Source: a virus. Taken from it: a stretch of DNA of 40,004 bases. Under the pieces are notes generated by a model. The model saw only the letters and a list, made by a program, of their open reading frames with translations. It had not been told where the DNA came from and ran no database searches. Position 1 is the first letter of the stretch. The number at the start of each line of letters is the position of its first letter. This document shows positions 6,605-32,910 of this stretch, one piece after another. The stretch lies in the IMG/VR virus record IMGVR_UViG_3300032215_000333, positions 1-40,004 of that record. The stretch is one strand, 5' to 3'. Position numbers and translations under genes: made by a program.

Positions 6605-7289
6605 AGATTACTTACAGCCTGACAATAAAAATTTATTTCAAGTTTTTAGTTCTAGTATGTTGAACATTGATTGGCATAACGTTTCTATACTTGATTATGG
6701 CTGTAATCAAGGTAATTATCTAAACTCAGCACGTGGTTACATAGACACTACCAAATATATTGGTGCAGACATAATGTTAAAATCAATTATGACAGCAACT
6801 AATATACATACTGATTGTAAATTCTTACACTACAATAAATGGCATCAAGCATGGAATCCAAACGGCGAGAAGAATTTAAATTTATCTAATGTACCAATGG
6901 GTGAGAAGTTTGATGTAATATTATGTTATAGTGTATTCACTCATACAACGTTTGAACAAACAAAACATGAATTAGAAGATTTAAAAAAATTACTAAATCC
7001 CAACGGTATAATATTGTTTACTATTTGGAGTAAAGAAATATTTCCAATGTTCAATAAATGGTTATTAGAACGATATGACAACGTATCAGCTATTTATTCA
7101 TTGCAATGTGCAAAGTTTGCATATTGGATAGACACGTCCAGACTAGTAATAGACACAGATGATTATATAAGCAATCAAGCTGAATCATTTAATACGTTTT
7201 ATGATTTAGAATGGTTTAAGAAAAATACCGGTGCAATGCATTTGGGAACGCCGGCGAACCAACATCAAAATTTATTTTATATAAAATGA
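6582..7289 (+). CDS. SAM-dependent methyltransferase
   Basis: About 235 residues with clear class I methyltransferase motifs: VSILDYGCNQGNYL (motif I, SAM-binding glycine loop), YIGADIML (motif II), KFDVILCYSVFTHT (motif IV) and LKKLLNPNGIILFTIW (post-core). The start is uncertain: ATG 6582 overlaps the previous gene by 23 nt, ATG 6591 by 14 nt, and neither has a good ribosome site. The substrate is not evident. Overlaps the next gene by ATGA. Confidence 0.85.
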   Translation: MTSMEQFKDYLQPDNKNLFQVFSSSMLNIDWHNVSILDYGCNQGNYLNSARGYIDTTKYIGADIMLKSIMTATNIHTDCKFLHYNKWHQAWNPNGEKNLNLSNVPMGEKFDVILCYSVFTHTTFEQTKHELEDLKKLLNPNGIILFTIWSKEIFPMFNKWLLERYDNVSAIYSLQCAKFAYWIDTSRLVIDTDDYISNQAESFNTFYDLEWFKKNTGAMHLGTPANQHQNLFYIK

Positions 7290-7810
7290 AAATTATAATT
7301 ACAGGCCATACTAGAGGATTAGGATTACAAATTTATAATCACTTTATAAATCAAGGGCACGAAGTGATTGGGTTGTCTAGGAGTAATGGATTTGATTTGG
7401 AGACCGCCACAGATAAAATTGTTGAGTTTGTAAAAGACAGTGGTTGTGATTATTTTTTTAACAATGCATACTGCCATGATATACAATTGGTATTGCTAAA
7501 AAAACTAGCACCGTATATAAAAACCATTACCAGCGGCAGTATGGGTTCTAATGAATATTGGATAAGCAAAAGAGATAACCCCTATTATATTAATAAATAT
7601 CATATAGAACTAACACATATTGAAGTCAAGAAAAACAATCCATTGCCAATGTTGTTATTGAAAATGGGTTACTTAGAAAGTTATCCAGATAAAGATCCTA
7701 TAGCCTACAGCGAAGTATTACACGCTATAGAGTTTTGGTTGACTAATCCTAGAGTCAGTATGATTGAGTTTGGAAACATCAACTATGATAAAAATATTAA
7801 ATTCAATTGA
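7286..7810 (+). CDS. Short-chain dehydrogenase/reductase-like protein
   Basis: A 174-residue NAD(P)-binding Rossmann protein beginning IIITGHTRGLGLQIYNHF, the TGxxxGxG cofactor loop of SDR enzymes, then GHEVIGLSRS and FFNNAY in place of the NNAG motif. It is shorter than usual (about 250) and lacks an obvious YxxxK pair in the normal context, although YYINKYHIE could supply Tyr and Lys. A paralogue is encoded at 18475 and shares TGHTRG(L/I)G. Substrate unknown. Confidence 0.8.
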   Translation: MKIIITGHTRGLGLQIYNHFINQGHEVIGLSRSNGFDLETATDKIVEFVKDSGCDYFFNNAYCHDIQLVLLKKLAPYIKTITSGSMGSNEYWISKRDNPYYINKYHIELTHIEVKKNNPLPMLLLKMGYLESYPDKDPIAYSEVLHAIEFWLTNPRVSMIEFGNINYDKNIKFN

Positions 7811-12538: not shown

Positions 12539-12630
12539 GCCAGCGAGACTTGATAGTCAGAGAGGTCTTATAAGCCTTTTAGCGCCAGATTAGCGTTCTT
12601 GAGTGGGTTTGATTCCCACCGCTGGTACCA
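12539..12630 (+). tRNA. Aberrant type II tRNA-like element, isotype unclear
   Basis: Acceptor GCCAGCG/CGCTGGT with encoded CCA and a 5-bp T stem GTGGG/CCCAC are clear, and a long variable-arm-like segment is present. The rest is abnormal: the T-loop is TTTGATT with U replacing the near-universal C56, and the candidate D-arm GACT-TGAT-AGTC has a 4-nt loop without GG, so the G19-C56 contact is lost on both sides. The best anticodon loop is CTTATAA (TAT) in a weak stem. It starts 4 nt after the RNase P RNA candidate. It may be degenerate, or a processing signal rather than a decoding tRNA. Confidence 0.5.
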
Positions 12631-12637
12631 ATTTTAT

Positions 12638-12714
12638 GGTGACTGTAGCTCAGTCGGTAGAGTCCCGGATTGTGATTCCGGTTGTCGGGAGTTCGAGCCT
12701 CCTCAGTCACCCCA
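12638..12714 (+). tRNA. tRNA-His (GTG)
   Basis: Eight-bp acceptor with the His-specific extra G(-1) opposite C73 (GGTGACTG/CAGTCACC), anticodon loop TTGTGAT, encoded CCA. Confidence 0.95.
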
Positions 12715-12739
12715 AATAATAAAGTATTTACTGTTTTGT

Positions 12740-12747
12740 GATAAATA
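12740..12747 (+). promoter_or_regulatory. T4-late-like promoter for the tandem paralogue cluster
   Basis: GATAAATA followed by a 22-nt stretch that carries ACAGGAG before ATG 12770. Confidence 0.45.
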
Positions 12748-12769
12748 CATGCACAGGAGACTATTAATC

Positions 12770-13102
12770 ATGGAACTAGTATTTAAAAAATATACATTAA
12801 TAACATATGTAGACTGGGTGCAAAATCCCGACAATGGTAATAATGTACCGGATAATGTACGACAATATACCGCTGCCAATGAATCATATCGAAGTGAGGC
12901 TCAAAAAAATAATGAAACACATCCATATTGTGGCTTTGATTTTGAAAATCAACAAGTAACAAGATATTGGAAAACTCAAGAAGCCGCAGAAGCGTATAAG
13001 GAAGTAGTACTAGCCAATGCACAAAAATTTAATATTAATATTAAAAGTTTAGAAATTTTAGACAATACTGATTGGGATCCGTCTAAAATCGTTAAAGTTT
13101 AA
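12770..13102 (+). CDS. Tandem paralogue family member 1, unknown function
   Basis: A 110-residue protein starting LVFKKYTLITYVDW, with the family core RYWKTQEAAEAYKEVVLANAQKF followed by NINIKSLEILDN. ACAGGAG (12752 onward) precedes ATG 12770; the frame is open upstream through tRNA-His but that part is not coding. The four neighbours in this family share a beta-strand-like start, an aromatic-x-T-x-E-x-A-E helix and an I-x-D-N end. No known function. Confidence 0.8.
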   Translation: MELVFKKYTLITYVDWVQNPDNGNNVPDNVRQYTAANESYRSEAQKNNETHPYCGFDFENQQVTRYWKTQEAAEAYKEVVLANAQKFNINIKSLEILDNTDWDPSKIVKV

Positions 13103-13116
13103 AAAGGTATTAAATA

Positions 13117-13446
13117 ATGACACTTAAATACACAAAATATATGGTAATATCATATAATGTATCTAAACAATTTCAAGATTTTACTGACAACGAAATTGCA
13201 TATACAAACGCTAATAAAGAAGAACGTTTAAAACATGTAAATTCGGGAGATACTCATCATGATGAGGTTATTCCATTGGAAGTACTGTATGATAATGAAA
13301 ATGGAAAAGTAAAAAGATATTTTACGACACTAGAGGCAGCAGAATCATATAAAGCAACCGTGATTGCTAACGCACAAAAATACAATGTTGGATTAAAAAG
13401 TGTAGACATTTTTGATAATGATAAAGATCCAGATATTATTTTATAA
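13117..13446 (+). CDS. Tandem paralogue family member 2, unknown function
   Basis: A 109-residue protein: KYTKYMVISYNVSKQFQDFT at the N-terminus, family core VKRYFTTLEAAESYKATVIA, then NAQKYNVGLKSVDIFDNDKD. Thirteen nt after member 1 with AAAAGG in the gap, so probably on the same transcript. The core aligns residue by residue with members 1 and 3. Confidence 0.8.
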   Translation: MTLKYTKYMVISYNVSKQFQDFTDNEIAYTNANKEERLKHVNSGDTHHDEVIPLEVLYDNENGKVKRYFTTLEAAESYKATVIANAQKYNVGLKSVDIFDNDKDPDIIL

Positions 13447-13470
13447 AATAATTTATTGTTAATTAACGTT

Positions 13471-13478
13471 TATAAATA
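13471..13478 (+). promoter_or_regulatory. T4-type late promoter, exact octamer
   Basis: TATAAATA identical to the T4 late consensus, 20 nt before ATG 13499, with ACGGAGA in the leader. Supplies paralogues 3 and 4. Confidence 0.6.
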
Positions 13479-13498
13479 TGTCTACGGAGATATGACAC

Positions 13499-13897
13499 AT
13501 GGAACTAACATATAAAAAATACGGATTGGTAGTTTTTGCTAATCCCACAAAAGAATTAACAAAAAATCAAATAGCATTCATGATGGATAACATGGAAAAA
13601 CTTCAAGTATTCATCGACGCCAAAGAAACACCAAATAACTTAATTCCCACACTTGACGGTCCTGGTCGTGTAAAGAAATACTTTACTACGCAAGAATCTG
13701 CTGAGGCGTGGAAGATTTCTATGTTAGCTAATGGTGAAAAACATGATGTGGGAATTTCTAGTTTAGAAATTTTTGACAATGATGTAGATCCCGTATTGCC
13801 CCCTCTAGAGGCAATGCAAAAATTCAATGCAATGTTAATATCAAATGCAAATAAATTTGATGTTGCCGTTCCTGATGTAGCTTGTTTAAAAGTCTAA
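13499..13897 (+). CDS. Tandem paralogue family member 3, unknown function
   Basis: A 132-residue protein: LTYKKYGLVVFANPTKELTK, then core VKKYFTTQESAEAWKISMLA and HDVGISSLEIFDNDVDP. It carries an extra 30 residues at the C-terminus that partly repeat the NANKFDV segment of the core (MLISNANKFDVAVPDV), as if a fragment of the family unit were duplicated. Exact T4 late octamer and ACGGAGA upstream. Confidence 0.8.
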   Translation: MELTYKKYGLVVFANPTKELTKNQIAFMMDNMEKLQVFIDAKETPNNLIPTLDGPGRVKKYFTTQESAEAWKISMLANGEKHDVGISSLEIFDNDVDPVLPPLEAMQKFNAMLISNANKFDVAVPDVACLKV

Positions 13898-14184
13898 TGT
13901 ATACTAAATACACCGTTGTTACTTTTGCTAATCCAAAAGAATCTTTTGCCGACTGGAGTGATGCTGAAATTGATTTTATAAATGATGCTTTTGAAAAAGC
14001 AGTATTACTTACTAGTCAAGGAAAAACACCAGGCTACCATGAACCAGTGGGTCTTGGTCAAGTTAAAAGATTATGGATAAATCTAGAGGCTGCTGAAGAA
14101 TGGAAACAATTTATATTTGACAATGCAGTTAAGCATAGTATATCCATAGATAATATTAAAATTTTTGATAATTTGGATTCTTAG
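13897..14184 (+). CDS. Tandem paralogue family member 4; stop codon lies inside tRNA-Arg (CCG)
   Basis: A 95-residue protein: MYTKYTVVTFANPKESFADW, core VKRLWINLEAAEEWKQFIFD, then NIKIFDNLDS. It starts on TAATG shared with member 3. Its last codons (GGA-TTC-TTAG in the DNA) are the first bases of the next tRNA: the TAG stop at 14182-14184 is tRNA nucleotides 8-10. Cutting at the tRNA 5' end would leave the mRNA without a stop codon. Confidence 0.8.
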   Translation: MYTKYTVVTFANPKESFADWSDAEIDFINDAFEKAVLLTSQGKTPGYHEPVGLGQVKRLWINLEAAEEWKQFIFDNAVKHSISIDNIKIFDNLDS

Positions 14185-14273: not shown

Positions 14274-14834
14274 ATGTCTGTGTTAACTTTAGATATCTCT
14301 GGTACTCCAAGACAATGGATTTCTACTGACGATGCTATTACATATCATGCAAAAAAAGCAGTGGCATGGGCACTAGGAGAAGTCATTGCAAAATATCGTG
14401 GTGGAACACAACGTGACGGACAAACAAGTTATTTAGAAACAACAAGTATAATTGCAGTTAAAGGTCATGGATTTAATCCATACAAACATGCAAATGTTGC
14501 ACTAAGTAACAAAACACTGTTTGGTCGGGACCGACACATATGTGCATACTGCGGGGACCACTTCCCAAATTATCATCACCTAAGTAGGGACCATATAGTC
14601 CCTAAATTTTTGGGTGGTGAAAACACTTGGATGAATGTTGTTACTGCATGTAAAGACTGCAATAGCAAGAAAAGTCACAAGACACTAAAACAAGCACGTA
14701 TGGAGTTGTTGTACGTACCCTACGTACCAAATCACTATGAAAATATGATTCTACAAAATCGCACGATTTTAGCGGATCAAATGGAATACCTATTAGCAGG
14801 TGTCCCTAAACATAGTAGAATTCTACTAAACTAG
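14274..14834 (+). CDS. HNH endonuclease
   Basis: A 186-residue protein with a C-terminal HNH domain: zinc cysteines CAYC (90-93) and CKDC (126-129) frame HHLSRDHIVPKFLGG (Asp106-His107) and Asn121/Asn130 of NTWMNVVTACKDCN. HNH enzymes nick or cut DNA; in phages they are often homing endonucleases or packaging-associated nucleases. Free-standing next to tRNA genes, a homing role is plausible but no intron is seen. GAAAGGAAAA precedes the start. Confidence 0.9.
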   Translation: MSVLTLDISGTPRQWISTDDAITYHAKKAVAWALGEVIAKYRGGTQRDGQTSYLETTSIIAVKGHGFNPYKHANVALSNKTLFGRDRHICAYCGDHFPNYHHLSRDHIVPKFLGGENTWMNVVTACKDCNSKKSHKTLKQARMELLYVPYVPNHYENMILQNRTILADQMEYLLAGVPKHSRILLN

Positions 14835-14857
14835 GTTGACATAAAAATCAGCCTAGT
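14830..14857 (+). promoter_or_regulatory. Inverted repeat over the tRNA promoter -35 region
   Basis: ACTAGGTTGA (14830-14839) and TCAGCCTAGT (14848-14857) form a 10-bp stem with one G-U pair and an 8-nt loop. It covers the HNH stop codon and the -35 box. Could be an operator or a weak terminator; there is no T-run. Confidence 0.5.
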
Positions 14858-14864
14858 GTATAAT
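14836..14864 (+). promoter_or_regulatory. Sigma70-type promoter for tRNA-Thr/Asn
   Basis: Perfect TTGACA (14836-14841), 17-nt spacer, perfect TATAAT (14859-14864), starting 12 nt before tRNA-Thr. Confidence 0.8.
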
Positions 14865-14882
14865 TCATCTAAATAAGTATTC

Positions 14883-14958
14883 GCCCCCTTAGCTCATCTG
14901 GTAGAGCAACTGATTTGTAATCAGTAGGTGGTCTGTTCGAGTCGGACAGGGGGCACCA
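14883..14958 (+). tRNA. tRNA-Thr (TGT)
   Basis: Acceptor GCCCCCT/AGGGGGC, anticodon stem ACTGA/TCAGT with loop TTTGTAA, encoded CCA. Confidence 0.95.
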
Positions 14959-14963
14959 AATAT

Positions 14964-15038
14964 TCCCTTGTAGCTCAGTGGTAGAGTAGTTGACTGTTAA
15001 TCAATTGGTCCGTGGTTCGAGCCCACGCAGGGGAGCCA
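14964..15038 (+). tRNA. tRNA-Asn (GTT)
   Basis: Acceptor TCCCTTG/CAGGGGA, anticodon loop CTGTTAA, T-arm CGTGG/CCACG, discriminator G as in tRNA-Asn, encoded CCA. Confidence 0.94.
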
Positions 15039-15059
15039 AATAAATCTTTGTTGTCAGGC

Positions 15060-15088
15060 TTGACAATAAATCGAATCACAAGTATAAT
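15060..15088 (+). promoter_or_regulatory. Extended-element promoter for tRNA-Arg (TCT)
   Basis: TTGACAATAAATCG followed by TATAATAC with 17-nt spacing. Same extended sequence as at 15314, 25297, 29206 and 29964. Confidence 0.8.
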
Positions 15089-15106
15089 ACACTTTTTAGA
15101 AATTCT

Positions 15107-15181
15107 CTGGCGTTCGTTCAACGGATAGGACATGATTCTTCTAAAGTCATTATGGGGGTTCGATTCCCTCACGCCGGACCA
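15107..15181 (+). tRNA. tRNA-Arg (TCT)
   Basis: Acceptor CTGGCGT/ACGCCGG, anticodon stem TGATT/AGTCA with loop CTTCTAA, T-loop TTCGATT, encoded CCA. Reads AGA and AGG. Confidence 0.93.
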
Positions 15182-15187
15182 ATAACA

Positions 15188-15209
15188 GTTGTTGTAATTT
15201 TACAACAAC
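15188..15209. repeat. Perfect GTTGT/ACAAC hairpin upstream of a promoter
   Basis: GTTGTTGTAA and TTACAACAAC form a 10-bp stem with a TT loop, directly upstream of the promoter at 15216. Similar hairpins precede the promoters at 25297 and 29964. Confidence 0.7.
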
Positions 15210-15215
15210 AAAAAG

Positions 15216-15244
15216 TTGACGTTAAATCGAGGTAGTGATACAAT
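15216..15244 (+). promoter_or_regulatory. First of two tandem promoters for the large structured RNA
   Basis: TTGACG (15216-15221), 17-nt spacer, TACAAT (15239-15244). Lies in the first copy of a 40-nt repeat. Confidence 0.7.
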
Positions 15245-15360
15245 CATTACATGAGTTGAGAAATTGATTCAGATTAGTTGGTAAAAGATTGTTGTAGAAA
15301 TACAAAAAATCATTTGACAATAAATCGAGGTAGTGATACAATCATTACATGAGTTGAGAA
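15223..15360 (+). repeat. Exact 40-nt direct repeat duplicating a promoter
   Basis: The 40 nt beginning TAAATCGAGGTAGTGATACA and ending GAGTTGAGAA occur at 15223-15262 and 15321-15360, identical, 98 nt apart. Each copy carries a promoter spacer, -10 box and initial transcribed region. Confidence 0.9.
15314..15342 (+). promoter_or_regulatory. Second tandem promoter for the large structured RNA
   Basis: TTGACA (15314-15319) within TTGACAATAAATCG, 17-nt spacer, TACAAT (15337-15342); expected start near 15349. Confidence 0.75.
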
Positions 15361-15785
15361 GTTATCAGACTTTTTAACGTGTTCTTTAAAAAATTAAGTT
15401 TCATATAGCATCTTGATTTTCAAGGTGTTATATGTAAGTATCGTAAAGGTTACCTACACCGTTAGGAGCTGTAAGAGAGGAGCACAGGGGCCGCCCTACG
15501 CAATCTTATAGCTCATGAAGTCAGGCGAACCACTGTCAAGGTGGCAAGTGAGATGGCGGAAACTGTAGGACTGTAATGACCGTGCAGGCTTACGTGGAGA
15601 CGTTCCCGTAAGTAGAGATAGATGCACAATGGTTCCTTTAGTTTACTTACATATAACATTTTATGCTCAGATACGTCCACGCAAAGTTCGCAACTTTGGA
15701 CCACGCTTAGGTAGCACCTAAGGGCAGTGGGTGGGGCTTACGTAGCCTCTCGGTGATAGAAGGTGGGAATCCTTCAAGGAGCGCC
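15349..15785 (+). ncRNA. Large structured non-coding RNA (about 440 nt)
   Basis: No coding frame of note. Pairings found by eye: GTTATATGTAAGTA (15427-15440) with TACTTACATATAAC (15644-15657), 14 perfect bp spanning 200 nt; TAAAGG (15444-15449) with CCTTTA (15635-15640), stacked inside it; GAGCTGTAAGA (15466-15476) with TCTTATAGCTC (15504-15514); CTTACG (15589-15594) with CGTAAG (15607-15612). A 3' domain holds four local hairpins: CAAAGT/ACTTTG (15682-15698), CTTAGGT/ACCTAAG (15706-15722), GGCT/AGCC (15735-15747) and GAAGG/CCTTC (15759-15775). The size, elaborate fold, tRNA neighbours and phage setting recall the GOLLD and ROOL classes of large ornate RNAs, but I cannot assign it to either. 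Confidence 0.75.
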
Positions 15786-15793
15786 TAACTAAT

Positions 15794-15869
15794 GCTCGGT
15801 TCGTCTAGAGGCCTAGGACAACGCCCTTTCACGGCGTGAACAGGGATTCGAATTCCCTACCGAGTACCA
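15794..15869 (+). tRNA. tRNA-Glu (TTC)
   Basis: Acceptor GCTCGGT/ACCGAGT with G1-U72, anticodon stem ACGCC/GGCGT with loop CTTTCAC, T-arm AGGGA/TCCCT, encoded CCA. Confidence 0.94.
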
Positions 15870-15874
15870 ATATC

Positions 15875-15958
15875 GGAGATGTAGGAAAACTGGTAACCCC
15901 AGCTGACTGTAAATCAGCCGCTTCGGCACTGTTGGTTCAACTCCAACCGTCTCCACCA
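15875..15958 (+). tRNA. tRNA-Tyr (GTA)
   Basis: Acceptor GGAGATG/CGTCTCC, anticodon stem GCTGA/TCAGC with loop CTGTAAA, long variable arm, encoded CCA. Confidence 0.95.
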
Positions 15959-15965
15959 AGAACAT

Positions 15966-16042
15966 GGTCCCATAGTATAGCCTGGTAAATATAGCGGCTT
16001 GTCACGCCGTCGACAGGGGTTCGAATCCCCTTGGGACCGCCA
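15966..16042 (+). tRNA. tRNA-Asp (GTC)
   Basis: Acceptor GGTCCCA/TGGGACC, anticodon loop TTGTCAC, discriminator G, encoded CCA. Followed by a 72-nt spacer without recognised content. Confidence 0.95.
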
Positions 16043-16114
16043 GAGCAAATAACAGGAAACTGTTCAACGGTTGTTAGTGACGATGGGTGTTAGCAGGAAC
16101 TAATATAAATTTTT

Positions 16115-16201
16115 GCGAGTGTGGTGAAATAGGTAGACACAAGAGACTTAAAATCTCTCGCCTGAAAGGGCATGCCGGTTCGATTCCGGCCACTCGCACC
16201 A
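16115..16201 (+). tRNA. tRNA-Leu (TAA)
   Basis: Acceptor GCGAGTG/CACTCGC, anticodon stem AGAGA/TCTCT with loop CTTAAAA, normal long variable arm, encoded CCA. Confidence 0.95.
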
Positions 16202-16207
16202 AACGTG

Positions 16208-16284
16208 GGGCCCTTAGCTCATTCGGTTAGAGCAGTGGACTCATAATCCATTGGTGGTGTGTTCGAATCACACAGGGCCCACCA
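16208..16284 (+). tRNA. tRNA with CAT anticodon, probably Ile2
   Basis: Acceptor GGGCCCT/AGGGCCC, anticodon loop CTCATAA, encoded CCA. The acceptor and TTAGCTCA start resemble bacterial tRNA-Ile2, whose C34 becomes lysidine and reads ATA. Elongator Met is the alternative. Confidence 0.85.
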
Positions 16285-16305
16285 AATTGTTAGTGTGTGA
16301 TTATT

Positions 16306-16400
16306 GGAGACGTGGGTGAGCCGGTTTAAACCACCTTCCTGCTAAGAAGACGTATGAGCAAAAACTTGTACCGAGAGTTCGAATCTCTCCGTCTCCGCCA
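16306..16400 (+). tRNA. tRNA-Ser (GCT)
   Basis: Acceptor GGAGACG/CGTCTCC, anticodon loop CTGCTAA in a 4-bp stem plus a C-A mismatch, long variable arm, discriminator G, encoded CCA. Confidence 0.92.
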
Positions 16401-16413
16401 ATAATATTTTTTC

Positions 16414-16491
16414 GGTGAGGTGGCAGAGCGGCCCAATGCAAGGGATTGCAAATCCCTAAAACCGTGAGTTCAAATCTCACCCTCACCTCCA
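16414..16491 (+). tRNA. tRNA-Cys (GCA)
   Basis: Acceptor GGTGAGG/CCTCACC, anticodon stem AGGGA/TCCCT with loop TTGCAAA, discriminator U typical of tRNA-Cys, encoded CCA. The following 112-nt spacer has two inverted repeats (GACA..AACGT/ACGTT..TGTC and GGGAT..ACGT/ACGT..ATCCC) and no gene. Confidence 0.94.
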
Positions 16492-16603
16492 GCAGATTTT
16501 TAACTTAAAGGAAATGACATGAAACGTAGCAAACGTTAGTGTCATCTTTAGATTCCATGTATGGTCTAGGGATGGCACGTAAAATCAAATTAATACGTAC
16601 TAT

Positions 16604-16678
16604 CCCTTCGAGATGTTACGGTAGCATACCGGACTCTTAATCCGAGAAGACTGAGTTCAATTCTCAGCGGAGGGACCA
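16604..16678 (+). tRNA. tRNA-Lys (CTT)
   Basis: Acceptor CCCTTCG/CGGAGGG, anticodon loop CTCTTAA, T-arm CTGAG/CTCAG, encoded CCA. One C-A mismatch at the base of the anticodon stem. Confidence 0.88.
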
Positions 16679-16684
16679 TATTAT

Positions 16685-16760
16685 GGAAGCATAACTCAAT
16701 GGCTAGAGTATCCGGCTTTTAACCGGAAAGTTGTGGGTTCGAGCCCCACTGCTTCTACCA
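16685..16760 (+). tRNA. tRNA-Lys (TTT)
   Basis: Acceptor GGAAGCA/TGCTTCT, anticodon stem TCCGG/CCGGA with loop CTTTTAA, T-loop TTCGAGC, encoded CCA. The CCA also belongs to a long downstream inverted repeat. Confidence 0.94.
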
Positions 16761-16981
16761 TATATAAACATACTATAGGTTGGGTTAGATTCGCGGTCTA
16801 ACTATTTGGGTCTGTAGTGTAGCCCTCCAAAACTACACGTGACTAAGATACATAGTGTGTTTATATATGGTAAAAATTGTCCGGCACAGGATCCGAAAGG
16901 ACTGCAAAGACGTATAGCCAGGATTTACTGGTGAACTGGAAAGGAACAGCCAGGTACGGACATCCGGGGAGGATAACCCCC
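16758..16981 (+). ncRNA. Candidate structured RNA that pairs with the tRNA-Lys 3' end
   Basis: CCATATATAAACATACTAT (16758-16776) pairs with ATAGTGTGTTTATATATGG (16852-16870), 19 bp with one G-U, including the CCA of tRNA-Lys. Enclosed hairpins are GTTAGA/TCTAAC (16784-16802) and GTGTAG/CTACAC (16817-16838). A second domain is closed by TGTCCG (16878-16883) and CGGACA (16957-16962), followed by GGGG/CCCC (16966-16980). No coding frame. Confidence 0.55.
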
Positions 16982-16990
16982 AACTAATTT

Positions 16991-17082
16991 GGAAATGTGG
17001 CAGAGTCCGGTTTATTGCAACAGTCTTGAAAACTGTCGTGTCAGCGATGGCACCGTGAGTTCGAATCTCACCGTTTCCGCCA
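16991..17082 (+). tRNA. tRNA-Ser (TGA)
   Basis: Acceptor GGAAATG/CGTTTCC, anticodon stem ACAGT/ACTGT with loop CTTGAAA, long variable arm, discriminator G, encoded CCA. Confidence 0.95.
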
Positions 17083-17086
17083 AAGG

Positions 17087-17233
17087 TTTTGTTTACGTGC
17101 GTACGGTAACCATATGTGACTAGCGAGTTGCCCAAGACACTTGTTAGTGTACCTGATGTCCGTAGCAGGTCTGGCTCCATGCCTGGGCTCCGCACACGAC
17201 TTGGACATTGTGTAACGGTAAACAAATTCATTT
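17087..17233 (+). ncRNA. Candidate structured spacer RNA between tRNA-Ser and tRNA-Trp
   Basis: TTTGTTTAC near the 5' end pairs with GTAAACAAA near the 3' end (about 17217-17226), enclosing hairpins ACACT-TGTT-AGTGT (about 17137-17151) and ACCTG/CAGGT (about 17150-17169). GC content of the interior is clearly above that of neighbouring coding DNA. No coding frame and no family recognised. Confidence 0.45.
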
Positions 17234-17235
17234 TT

Positions 17236-17309
17236 GTCTCTCTGATGTAATGGCAGCATAGCGGTCTCCAAAACCGTTCGTTGGGGTTCGAGTCCCTAGG
17301 GGGACGCCA
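17236..17309 (+). tRNA. tRNA-Trp (CCA)
   Basis: Acceptor GTCTCTC/GGGGGAC with G-U pairs, anticodon stem GCGGT/ACCGT with loop CTCCAAA, discriminator G, encoded CCA. Confidence 0.93.
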
Positions 17310-17313
17310 AATT

Positions 17314-17387
17314 GCGGGGTTCGTATAGTGGTAATACCTTAGCCTTCCAAGCTAATGCTGAGAGTTCGATTCTCTTACCCCGCTCCA
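17314..17387 (+). tRNA. tRNA-Gly (TCC)
   Basis: Acceptor GCGGGGT/ACCCCGC, anticodon stem TTAGC/GCTAA with loop CTTCCAA, discriminator U as in bacterial tRNA-Gly, encoded CCA. Confidence 0.95.
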
Positions 17388-17389
17388 CT

Positions 17390-17397
17390 GATAAATA
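17390..17397 (+). promoter_or_regulatory. T4-late-like promoter element
   Basis: GATAAATA, 8 nt before ATG 17406; leader would be very short and has no ribosome site. Confidence 0.4.
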
Positions 17398-17405
17398 AAA
17401 ATATC

Positions 17406-18041
17406 ATGCAAACAATAACAGTTAATAGCGTAAATATAGATATCCACGAAGGTCCAATTGGAGTTAGTGTAAGCGGTGGTGCTGATAGTGCAATTTTATT
17501 ATATATACTAATGAAACACGCACCGGGCCCAATCCATGTATATACATGCGTTGGTAAATCAAAGAATAGAGTAGCACCGCATGTTGTATCTAATTTGATT
17601 GGTAAATTGATTGATATGACCGGTAGAAAAGATAATGAAATTTTTCATCACTGTTCATTTGTAGATGACCAGCATATTACTAACATGTTTGTTTTACCTA
17701 GAGATAATCTTAATAATGGTATTATTAATTACATGTATACTGGTACAACAGCGAATCCCCCGGTAAATGTCACCGATGATTTTTTTGGAGACAACTTTAC
17801 ACATAATGAACGTAATCCTGAGGTAATAAGACCCTATTATAAAAGTAGAGACAATAAATTTTATGTGCCGTTTATAAACGTAGACAAACAAGTTATACGC
17901 GGTATGTATGAAGAATTAAATGTACTAGAAGAATTATTTCCATTGACACGTTCCTGTGAAAGTTTTACATTAACTGAAGGGCATTGCGGTGAATGCTGGT
18001 GGTGTCAAGAAAGGCACTGGGGATTTGGTAGGCTCTTTTAA
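17406..18041 (+). CDS. PP-loop ATPase, QueC-like
   Basis: A 211-residue protein with the PP-loop motif SGGADS (23-28) after a beta-strand, which binds ATP pyrophosphate, and a C-terminal zinc-type cluster CGECWWCQERHWGFGR preceded by SCESF. The SC..CGxCxxC..R..GF layout is that of QueC/ExsB 7-cyano-7-deazaguanine synthases. No folE, queD or queE homologue is in the window, so it may belong to a 7-deazaguanine pathway encoded elsewhere or act on another carboxylate. Start at 17406 since upstream frame is tRNA-Gly. Confidence 0.75.
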   Translation: MQTITVNSVNIDIHEGPIGVSVSGGADSAILLYILMKHAPGPIHVYTCVGKSKNRVAPHVVSNLIGKLIDMTGRKDNEIFHHCSFVDDQHITNMFVLPRDNLNNGIINYMYTGTTANPPVNVTDDFFGDNFTHNERNPEVIRPYYKSRDNKFYVPFINVDKQVIRGMYEELNVLEELFPLTRSCESFTLTEGHCGECWWCQERHWGFGRLF

Positions 18042-18474: not shown

Positions 18475-19047
18475 ATGAAAATTGCAATTACTGGACACAC
18501 TAGAGGAATAGGTAAAGCACTAAGCGATGGCTTTGCAAGTCAGGGACATGAGGTTATAGGCTTTAGTAGGTCTACAACTCCCAACTTATCTAGTGAAGAA
18601 GGTATAGAGGCAGTTGCAAACGCAAGCATTGATTGTGATATGATTGTTATTAATGCGTATGATTTTGAATTACGTAAAACTAATTTAGGATTTGCACAGA
18701 CAACATTATTACTTAAGATGTGGGAGTTATGGAAAGATAAAGATAAAATTATTGTGACTATAGGTAGTAGGTCAAGTGATGGTAGCATGATTGGTAGTGA
18801 CCCAGTACCAATGAGACCTTTTTACTATTATATTCACAAGTGTACGCTAGATTTAGCAGTCAAACAGTTGAGAAACATACAGAAAACTAATCCGCAAATT
18901 ATAAATTTAAAACCGGGTTACGTTGATACTGATATGATATCACATGTGACTGCTAAAAAGTTAGATCCAAAAGATGTGTTTGAATTATTAGATTGGGCAA
19001 TTAAGCACAAGAATCTAATTTTAGACTTATCTTTTACTGTTAGATAG
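18475..19047 (+). CDS. Short-chain dehydrogenase/reductase-like protein, paralogue 2
   Basis: A 190-residue Rossmann protein: IAITGHTRGIGKALSDGFA (cofactor loop), GHEVIGFSRS, MIVINAY, IVTIGSRSS in the catalytic Ser position, YYYIHKCTLDLAVKQL supplying Tyr and Lys as in the YxxxK motif, and LKPGYVDTDM, the PG motif after the active site. More canonical than the paralogue at 7286. Substrate unknown. It ends 4 nt before tRNA-Met. Confidence 0.88.
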   Translation: MKIAITGHTRGIGKALSDGFASQGHEVIGFSRSTTPNLSSEEGIEAVANASIDCDMIVINAYDFELRKTNLGFAQTTLLLKMWELWKDKDKIIVTIGSRSSDGSMIGSDPVPMRPFYYYIHKCTLDLAVKQLRNIQKTNPQIINLKPGYVDTDMISHVTAKKLDPKDVFELLDWAIKHKNLILDLSFTVR

Positions 19048-32042: not shown

Positions 32043-32066
32043 AAGCCCCTTAAGTGGGGCTTTTTT
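32043..32066 (+). terminator. Intrinsic terminator between convergent operons
   Basis: AAGCCCC (32043-32049) and GGGGCTT (32056-32062) with a TTTTTT run ending at 32066. Works on the plus strand; the run overlaps the stop of the minus-strand protease gene. Confidence 0.85.
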
Positions 32067-32910
32067 ACGGGTTACTAACCGATTTGATGATCCAAAAATC
32101 GCTACTCATTTGTGTATTCTGAATTACTTGAAATGGCATATAGAAGTAACCTCGGTCTCCCCAACTAGTACCCCAACTATTACGTACAATATAAACCTGT
32201 CTGGTCTTATCATATCCTACAAGCAATACAGCATGTCCGCCTAATAATTGTTCTCTACTGGTATTTGGATAAGGCATAATACCTGTTCGTGCTACCGTAG
32301 CACTTTCAAAACTACTGTACACGCTAAATCCAATTACAACAGGATAGCCATTTGCCAATGCATCTAGACAACCTTGATGATTTGCCACTGCTTGATACAA
32401 TGTTACCTTACGTTTTGCACCGTCAGTGATTGCCTGTTGTGAAGGTTGTGTTCTAAATTTAGTAATATCATAGGGCCATAAATTTTCAGTTGGAGCACCG
32501 TAGTTGTATACTGCTCTCATACCATCACGAATATAAGCACCACTGTCATAATTCACAGTACCTTCAAATAATCTTTCATAATAATAGATATACAAACGGC
32601 TTACATCAAGATTTTTACCTGCTCGTTTGTCTAGTAACTCAATTGCACCTGCAATAGCATTACCAGTGCAACTACCTAGATTGCCTTGGTCTTCTATTGA
32701 TGAACAGTAAGGACGTAAGTCAACAACATTAGGTTGAGCAACAGAAGATAATGTATATGGTTTATCACGTGAATCTTCAGGTTGTTTAGCCCAATGATAT
32801 TTAGGAATATCAAATGGTAATTTAAAAGGAGTTATTTTTTGAATACCCGGTCTACGATGTAATCCCGGATCCTGTTCTATATCTATTATTGTTCTTGAAT
32901 CTTGTTTCAT
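32065..32910 (-). CDS. Papain-like (C1A) cysteine protease
   Basis: A 281-residue protein. After a 60-residue N-terminal extension comes a C1A domain: EDQGNLGSCTGNAIAGA (oxyanion Gln75, catalytic Cys81), LLGGHAVLLVGYD (catalytic His) and VRNSWGTSWGDRGYFYMP (Asn and the NSWG block). No signal peptide. Position at the end of a tail-fibre operon, overlapping the pirin gene by ATGA, suggests a virion or late-infection role such as processing fibre proteins. The target is unknown. Confidence 0.93.
   Translation of the reverse strand: MKQDSRTIIDIEQDPGLHRRPGIQKITPFKLPFDIPKYHWAKQPEDSRDKPYTLSSVAQPNVVDLRPYCSSIEDQGNLGSCTGNAIAGAIELLDKRAGKNLDVSRLYIYYYERLFEGTVNYDSGAYIRDGMRAVYNYGAPTENLWPYDITKFRTQPSQQAITDGAKRKVTLYQAVANHQGCLDALANGYPVVIGFSVYSSFESATVARTGIMPYPNTSREQLLGGHAVLLVGYDKTRQVYIVRNSWGTSWGDRGYFYMPFQVIQNTQMSSDFWIIKSVSNP

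Follow-up and report, generated by a model that had tools for sequence, protein, structure and literature searches.

Introduction

The large structured RNAs GOLLD and ROOL occur in phages near tRNA islands (PMC12286853). In the rRNA operons of E. coli, the antitermination complex needs no more than boxA for its assembly, and 18–19 nt behind boxA, in the leader strand, lies boxC; it has been proposed that boxC stays with the polymerase up to the emergence of the trailer, and the leader–trailer helix is essential for 30S formation (PMC10250234).

Here, we describe a locus in a 40,004-bp IMG/VR virus record, the whole of which is referred to as the window. We consider it probable that the locus reproduces, in a phage, the layout of a bacterial rRNA operon, delivering an exchangeable structured RNA together with tRNAs via host Nus antitermination and stalk processing.

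The structured RNA and its gene context

Folding of 15349–15793 gave −146.9 kcal/mol (z = −4.57), with none of 100 dinucleotide shuffles as low, which bears out the large structured RNA that the initial annotation had placed at 15349–15785. The structural elements listed there were recovered as well, namely the "14-bp perfect helix" as 15 uninterrupted base pairs (15426–15440 with 15644–15658) within a 19-bp helix (15422–15440/15644–15662), the stacked inner helix as TAAAGG/CCTTTA (15444–15449/15635–15640), the 11-bp side hairpin at 15466–15476/15504–15514, and the 3′ domain of four hairpins between 15675 and 15775. The duplicated promoter proved to be a 59-nt repeat of 88% identity, 98 bp apart, and the RNA is indeed embedded among tRNAs, with tRNA-Arg(TCT) ending at 15181 and tRNA-Glu(TTC) starting at 15794. 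The absence of coding potential was likewise confirmed, plus-strand ORFs of at least 60 aa being absent from 14834–17355. A coding reading of the motif AUGAAG was rejected, since its AUG varies (AAG, AGG and ACG occur) and no ORF spans the RNA.

The conserved RNA was narrowed to 15428–15656, and the preceding stretch, 15353–15434, was assigned as a boxA leader with hairpins. Two features follow the conserved part:

15663–15785, plus strand: four-hairpin 3′ module, in whose place most relatives carry other modules
15794–15869, plus strand: tRNA-Glu(TTC), the first tRNA behind the RNA

Among the loci read, a recognisable homologue of the 3′ module was found in L133 only. tRNA-Glu(UUC) is the first tRNA 3′ of the RNA in 53 of 57 loci. 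Counted from the predicted transcription start, the array comprises about 2 kb with the RNA and 12 tRNAs (15349–17387).

Several protein-coding genes of the window were recorded alongside. A QueC-like protein is encoded within the tRNA array (17355–18041), a short-chain dehydrogenase-like protein at 18475–19047 and, by sequence resemblance only, a short-chain dehydrogenase look-alike at 7286–7810. Four tandem, small, similar-looking proteins without Pfam or PHROGs match lie between tRNA genes at 12599–14184.

Promoters and boxA leader

The region upstream of the conserved RNA contains the following features:

15207–15265, plus strand: promoter copy 1, TTGACG (15216–15221) and TACAAT (15239–15244); from the 88% repeat of copy 2 and a promoter scan
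15305–15363, plus strand: promoter copy 2, TTGACA (15314–15319) and TACAAT (15337–15342); from the repeat and a promoter scan
15353–15378, plus strand: 11-bp hairpin directly before boxA, in the boxB position of rrn leaders; from folding
15380–15392, plus strand: boxA-like antitermination signal TGTTCTTTAAAAA; from sequence match
15402–15434, plus strand: hairpin a–b, with strand a CATATAG (15402–15408), an inner stem and strand b TTATATG (15428–15434)

Both promoter copies are of the sigma-70 type (TTGAC(A/G)-17-TACAAT), and from copy 2 the transcription start is predicted at about 15349. At least one such promoter stands upstream of boxA in 46 of 47 homologous loci, with two or three present in 31. 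The hairpin in the boxB position has 5–11 bp in most relatives, the mean of 5.7 versus 4.4 in shuffles being a modest excess.

The boxA-like 13-mer was found in all 48 loci checked, with 9–13 of 13 positions matching TGYTCTTTAAMAA and, throughout, 8–14 nt before strand a of the hairpin; every one of these loci has a boxA near the rrn consensus close to the predicted transcript start. The boxA of the window differs by one base from the spacer boxA of E. coli rrnB (TGCTCTTTAAAAA), the rrnB leader carrying TGCTCTTTAACAA; nine loci have G instead of T at position 6. The spacing between the −10 element and boxA, 37 nt in the window, is about equal to that of rrnB P2, and it varies between 24 and 46 nt in most loci, exceeding 95 nt in a minority. 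The minimum free energy (MFE) structure pairs 15379–15387 with the 3′ end, a pairing that consumes boxA and is probably not biological. In the open-licence literature, we found no description of a boxA in phage tRNA arrays.

The boxA is still present between promoter and first tRNA in loci that lack the RNA, L098–L100 and L193 (twice), which ties it to transcription of an untranslated array rather than to this particular RNA. In L098–L100 and in L193 (minus strand), the promoter is followed directly by boxA and then by tRNA-Leu, without an ornate RNA.

Distribution of the RNA

The phage family was opened by a papain-like protease (32065–32910), through which 54 related contigs, the largest of 524 kb, were reached; between the two tRNAs that flank the RNA in the window, several of these contigs carry an RNA sharing its 5′ end. 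A search of viral contigs with a pattern of the bases in common (TATATG, GGTYACC, CCGTTAGG) returned 62 stretches; a hairpin pattern matched 37, many of them in common with the first set. After removal of near-duplicates, at least 39 non-redundant full-length cores from uncultivated phages were available, and covariance model R1 was built from 34 of these. R1 scored the window, which is itself part of the model, at 149.6 bits (E = 2.9e-32) and was positive in 27 of 48 phage records, some with only short stalked cassettes. L124 had been left out of the hand alignment, yet is a real member according to R1 (G049, E 8e-16). Three loci that matched the hairpin pattern alone (L175, L186 and L187) were dropped as chance matches.

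As a BLASTN query, the window RNA had no match in 50,697 phage records, nor had four divergent relatives, and neither the first exact pattern taken from the window RNA nor a scan with the QueC-like protein uncovered an RNA homologue. Among 84,980 bacterial and archaeal species genomes, the RNA was not found; the two matches to the pattern of common bases, in Mucilaginibacter and in a Chloroflexi MAG, lacked boxA, stalk and tRNAs and were rejected as chance.

In L166, a phage-encoded tmRNA of betaproteobacterial type is present in the same contig region (2366–2686), to which the permuted model also matches. Going by this one tmRNA match, the host is probably betaproteobacterial.

Core structure and covariation

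The conserved RNA is composed of a closing stalk (P1), two core helices (P2, P3) and three variable arms (P4–P6):

15428–15449, plus strand: P1 stalk, leader strand; from covariation and covariance model R1
15635–15656, plus strand: P1 stalk, trailer strand, with a′ (CATATAA) at its end; from covariation and covariance model R1
15453–15457, plus strand: P2 5′ strand CCTAC, pairing with GTAGG at 15565–15569
15565–15569, plus strand: P2 3′ strand GTAGG; from covariation
15459–15463, plus strand: P3 5′ strand CCGTT, pairing with GGCGG at 15555–15559
15555–15559, plus strand: P3 3′ strand GGCGG; from covariation
15466–15514, plus strand: variable arm P4, an 11-bp stem in the window and a hairpin in nearly all members
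15515–15554, plus strand: conserved ATGAAG linker and variable arm P5
15570–15634, plus strand: conserved GTAATGA motif and variable arm P6, with GACGT in the loop

Because about one third of the rows in the automatic alignment (A2) have P3 in the wrong place, the helices were tested in a scaffold alignment (A3) of 28 sequences, from which the variable arms had been cut out and which covers P1 (17 pairs), P2 (5) and P3 (5). In total, 94.4% of cells were paired and 12 of 27 pairs showed two-sided changes. None of 500 shuffles reached any of five measures, a count that is not a probability because the sequences are related, and sliding the partner strand by 1–3 columns lowered pairing to 31–52%. 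For P1 taken separately, a long leader–trailer helix closing the RNA as in rrn-type stalks, 7 of 17 pairs showed two-sided changes and 92.2% of cells were paired; for P2, the two-sided changes concerned three of five pairs, with the variants CCUACA/UGUAGG, CCUAGU/ACUAGG, CCCACU/AGUGGG, CCUAUA/UAUAGG and CCCACA/UGUGGG. The strands of P3, which is exchanged to CCAG/CTGG in L176, were located with motif expressions, so that its 100% pairing arises partly by construction; this does not apply to P1 and P2, which also hold in an alignment built without motif anchors. The long helices thus possess covariation among homologues, the lack of which the initial annotation had listed first among its refuting conditions.

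P4 was present in 32 distinct sequences, forming a hairpin nearly throughout, and P5 and P6 vary likewise. The arms are mosaic, L133 combining a P6 of the window type with a P5 of the L172 type. The stretches between the arms retain GGUUA, CCGUUAGG, A(N)GAAR and GUAAUGA. TATATG, GGTYACC and CCGTTAGG were part of the patterns used to gather the loci, so that the invariance of those letters is partly selection. Fixed junction motifs on changing arms suggest a function of the RNA itself and make a role in trans likelier than that of a spacer. GACG is a recurrent element of the P4 loops and often of the P6 loops, lying in the apical loop while the stems change; it equals the P3 3′ strand and is complementary to CCGUU of P3, so that loop–core or intermolecular contacts are possible.

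Exchangeable cassettes

The stalk CTATATGnAAACA...TGTTTnCATATAG was found to enclose at least seven other, unrelated interiors, the unrelated interiors of this stalk spanning 68–263 nt. Individual interiors measure 68 nt (L182/L189), 78 nt (L171), 83 nt (L177), 106 nt (L185), 112 nt (L181), 133 nt (L137) and 82–84 nt (L095/L097/L119/L164/L166/L188), and in L119, L137, L166 and L171 a second cassette stands in tandem behind the core. Comparison of the loci suffices to establish this exchange of cassettes, as it does the RNA family with its core structure, the boxA leader and the stalk.

For the layout, the core interior is dispensable, since other interiors or a 68-nt hairpin occupy the stalk in its place, and the importance of the conserved RNA may therefore be confined to effects in cis. 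According to this explanation, boxA, hairpin and stalk serve transcription and processing of the tRNA array, and the RNA within the stalk would be no more than an insulator or a stable spacer, with no target of its own. Unrelated interiors in one and the same stalk are what it would lead one to expect, as is a boxA that stands without the RNA in L098–L100 and L193. However, in at least 39 non-redundant loci, the single-stranded junction motifs of the commonest interior are preserved exactly although the arms have strongly diverged, and a spacer would need none of them; we regard the purely cis-acting explanation as unlikely, while giving it some weight.

Further stalked modules were observed between tRNA genes. 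A continuous helix of at least 16 bp was present in 7 of 80 inter-tRNA spacers examined versus 0 of 400 shuffles. In the window, a second stalked module lies behind tRNA-Lys(TTT) at 16761–16867, where a 16-bp perfect helix encloses 75 nt; its 24-nt arms are 92% complementary, its stalk resembles the main one (TATATAAACATACTAT/ATAGTGTGTTTATATA) and a further structured spacer follows, to 16990. Between tRNA-Tyr and tRNA-Asp of L164, L188 and L123, a 21-bp stalk around 113–118 nt with compensatory changes (AGTTAAG/CTTAACT versus AGCCAAG/CTTGGCT) represents another stalked RNA family. L116, L118, L128, L134, L135 and others carry a long-stalk module of 18 bp, TGTTATTAGTTTTGCTGA...TCAGCAAAACTAATAACA, between the core and tRNA-Glu, and a third module type occupies the interval between core RNA and tRNA-Glu in L136, L144 and L171.

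Three-strand arrangement of the stalk

Strand b (CTATATG) is the 3′ strand of the leader hairpin and at the same time opens P1, the leader–trailer stalk of 15–20 bp that encloses the RNA. It may pair either with a or, alternatively, with a′ (15650–15656). Pairing of a with b extends over 6–7 of 7 positions in 48 of 48 loci, and the inner stems differ. The predicted median stability is −21.6 kcal/mol for P1 (b–a′) versus −16.2 kcal/mol for a–b, and the MFE structure of leader plus core contained b–a′ in 33 of 39 cases; in some loci, the two stabilities are similar. The first trailer bases to emerge encounter the unpaired stretch behind b earlier than a′ arrives at b; this order, read from the sequence, would allow a to be displaced from b by branch migration.

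Two mutually exclusive helices could also constitute a cis-regulatory switch, controlling read-through into the tRNAs or their processing upon a signal. The retention of the alternative pairing in 48/48 loci and the similar stabilities in some of them would fit, but the region contains no terminator-like plus-strand site, and the helices are the same whatever the interior, which leaves no constant sensor. A switch is, hence, improbable.

Position of the RNA and relation to known families

The RNA is always found in one orientation, before tRNA-Glu and behind promoter and boxA. This constancy argues against a mobile or selfish RNA element with the stalk as its insertion boundary, to which the exchange of cassettes and the tandem cassettes at a common boundary might otherwise point; moreover, Rfam searches of the window and its relatives linked the RNA neither to group I/II introns nor to other elements of Rfam, and we consider such an origin very improbable. 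In the survey so far, no copies have come to light outside tRNA arrays.

At gathering thresholds, Rfam 15 recognised tRNAs only in the window. With lax filters on 621 nt, four matches were obtained, the best at E = 1.4, and the Infernal search with the GOLLD and ROOL models that the initial annotation had proposed gave no match at E ≤ 10; in 14 relatives, ROOL gave none at E ≤ 2. The window RNA stayed below the gathering score of 150 bits of the GOLLD model (RF02032), and, as a positive control, true GOLLD was detected at 196–206 bits elsewhere in related phages. It occupied a separate site in 7 of 43 phage records screened, standing behind the RNA in the same tRNA array in L176 and about 2–3 kb from the RNA in G051 and G054, from which it follows that the two RNAs are different. 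Of the two options in the initial annotation, a divergent GOLLD or ROOL member or a new class, the latter is retained: judged by these searches, the RNA belongs to no Rfam 15 family and is a new class. Despite the shared setting in phage tRNA islands (PMC12286853), a divergent GOLLD or ROOL RNA is the least probable explanation, given the missing matches at E ≤ 10, the separate GOLLD copies and the differing size and core.

A remnant of 16S rRNA, suspected from GACGGG..AGTAATG, was rejected, since nhmmer at maximum sensitivity found nothing and blastn only chance words of 9–10 nt. Rfam gave no rRNA match for the enclosed RNA, and nhmmer of the family against an E. coli stretch with 16S gave none either.

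Proposed mechanism and implications

The boxA, the leader–trailer stalk and the exchange of cassettes, none of which figures in the initial annotation, point to an rRNA-operon-like unit. From the rRNA parallel, we infer how the unit would be transcribed, bound by Nus factors, rearranged in its pairing and cleaved at the stalk, as follows. The twin sigma-70 promoters would start an untranslated transcript, whose boxA near the 5′ end would recruit host NusB–S10 (NusE) together with NusA, NusG and SuhB, and RNA polymerase would thereby resist Rho across the array. The leader strand of P1 would at first be kept in the local hairpin a–b; the emerging trailer would then pair with the free bases behind b and displace a by branch migration, upon which the leader–trailer helix would close around the finished RNA. 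Cleavage of the stalk, probably by RNase III or by a similar nuclease, would set free both the RNA and the precursor of the tRNAs. For P2–P6, the RNA within the stalk, in which a fixed core bears exchangeable arms, a role in trans is most likely; its partner would be a protein of host or phage, the ribosome or the RNA's own copies.

A wider reading, which is possible but put forward tentatively, is that huge phages run a "stable-RNA factory", in which an rRNA-operon-like unit captures host rRNA antitermination and maturation and mass-produces interchangeable structured RNA cassettes on a standard stalk mount, which would accept new arms as well as entire RNAs; GOLLD would be a further product of these arrays and the dominant cassette a new functional RNA class. 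If so, the dominant cassette might be, for example, a decoy for a ribosome-assembly factor, a counter-defence RNA or a self-assembling particle.

With this RNA, a large, well-supported family joins the few ornate phage RNAs of open function, and it brings a context that GOLLD and ROOL lacked, in the form of a proposal for where transcription of such an RNA begins, why it does not terminate early, and what sets the limits of the RNA and frees it. Should the parallel with rRNA operons prove correct, phages would be using the ribosome-production pathway for their own RNAs, and the function of an ornate phage RNA becomes testable with rrn assays. The exchangeable cassettes provide a natural comparative series for target finding.

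Comparison with known systems

ROOL is likewise a phage RNA near tRNAs with unsettled function (PMC12286853), from which the present RNA is set apart by the Rfam results in the window (E ≤ 10) and in the 14 relatives (E ≤ 2). With GOLLD it shares the character of a large structured RNA of phage tRNA arrays, even in the same phages, but it has no covariance-model match to GOLLD and a different core, of about 190–260 nt and closed by the CTATATG...CATATAG stalk. GOLLD of G078 also has boxA-like sites upstream; in that tRNA array (L211, G078:279500-284500), a stalked 85-nt cassette adjoins.

The nut site of lambda resembles the leader in that boxA is followed by a stem-loop near the transcript start, which is predicted here; however, the boxA of the phage locus is closer to the rrn form, and strand b of its hairpin also takes part in a long-range stalk. 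The rRNA operon differs in that the RNA enclosed in the phage locus is not rRNA, that the interiors are exchangeable and the unit is phage-borne, that a hairpin sequestering the leader strand is present between boxA and stalk, and that P1 is shorter than the 16S leader–trailer helix of E. coli. The order in E. coli rrnB is nevertheless the same, with twin promoters, hairpin, boxA, closing stalk, structured RNA and tRNA-Glu(UUC), the latter standing behind 16S as it does behind the phage RNA.
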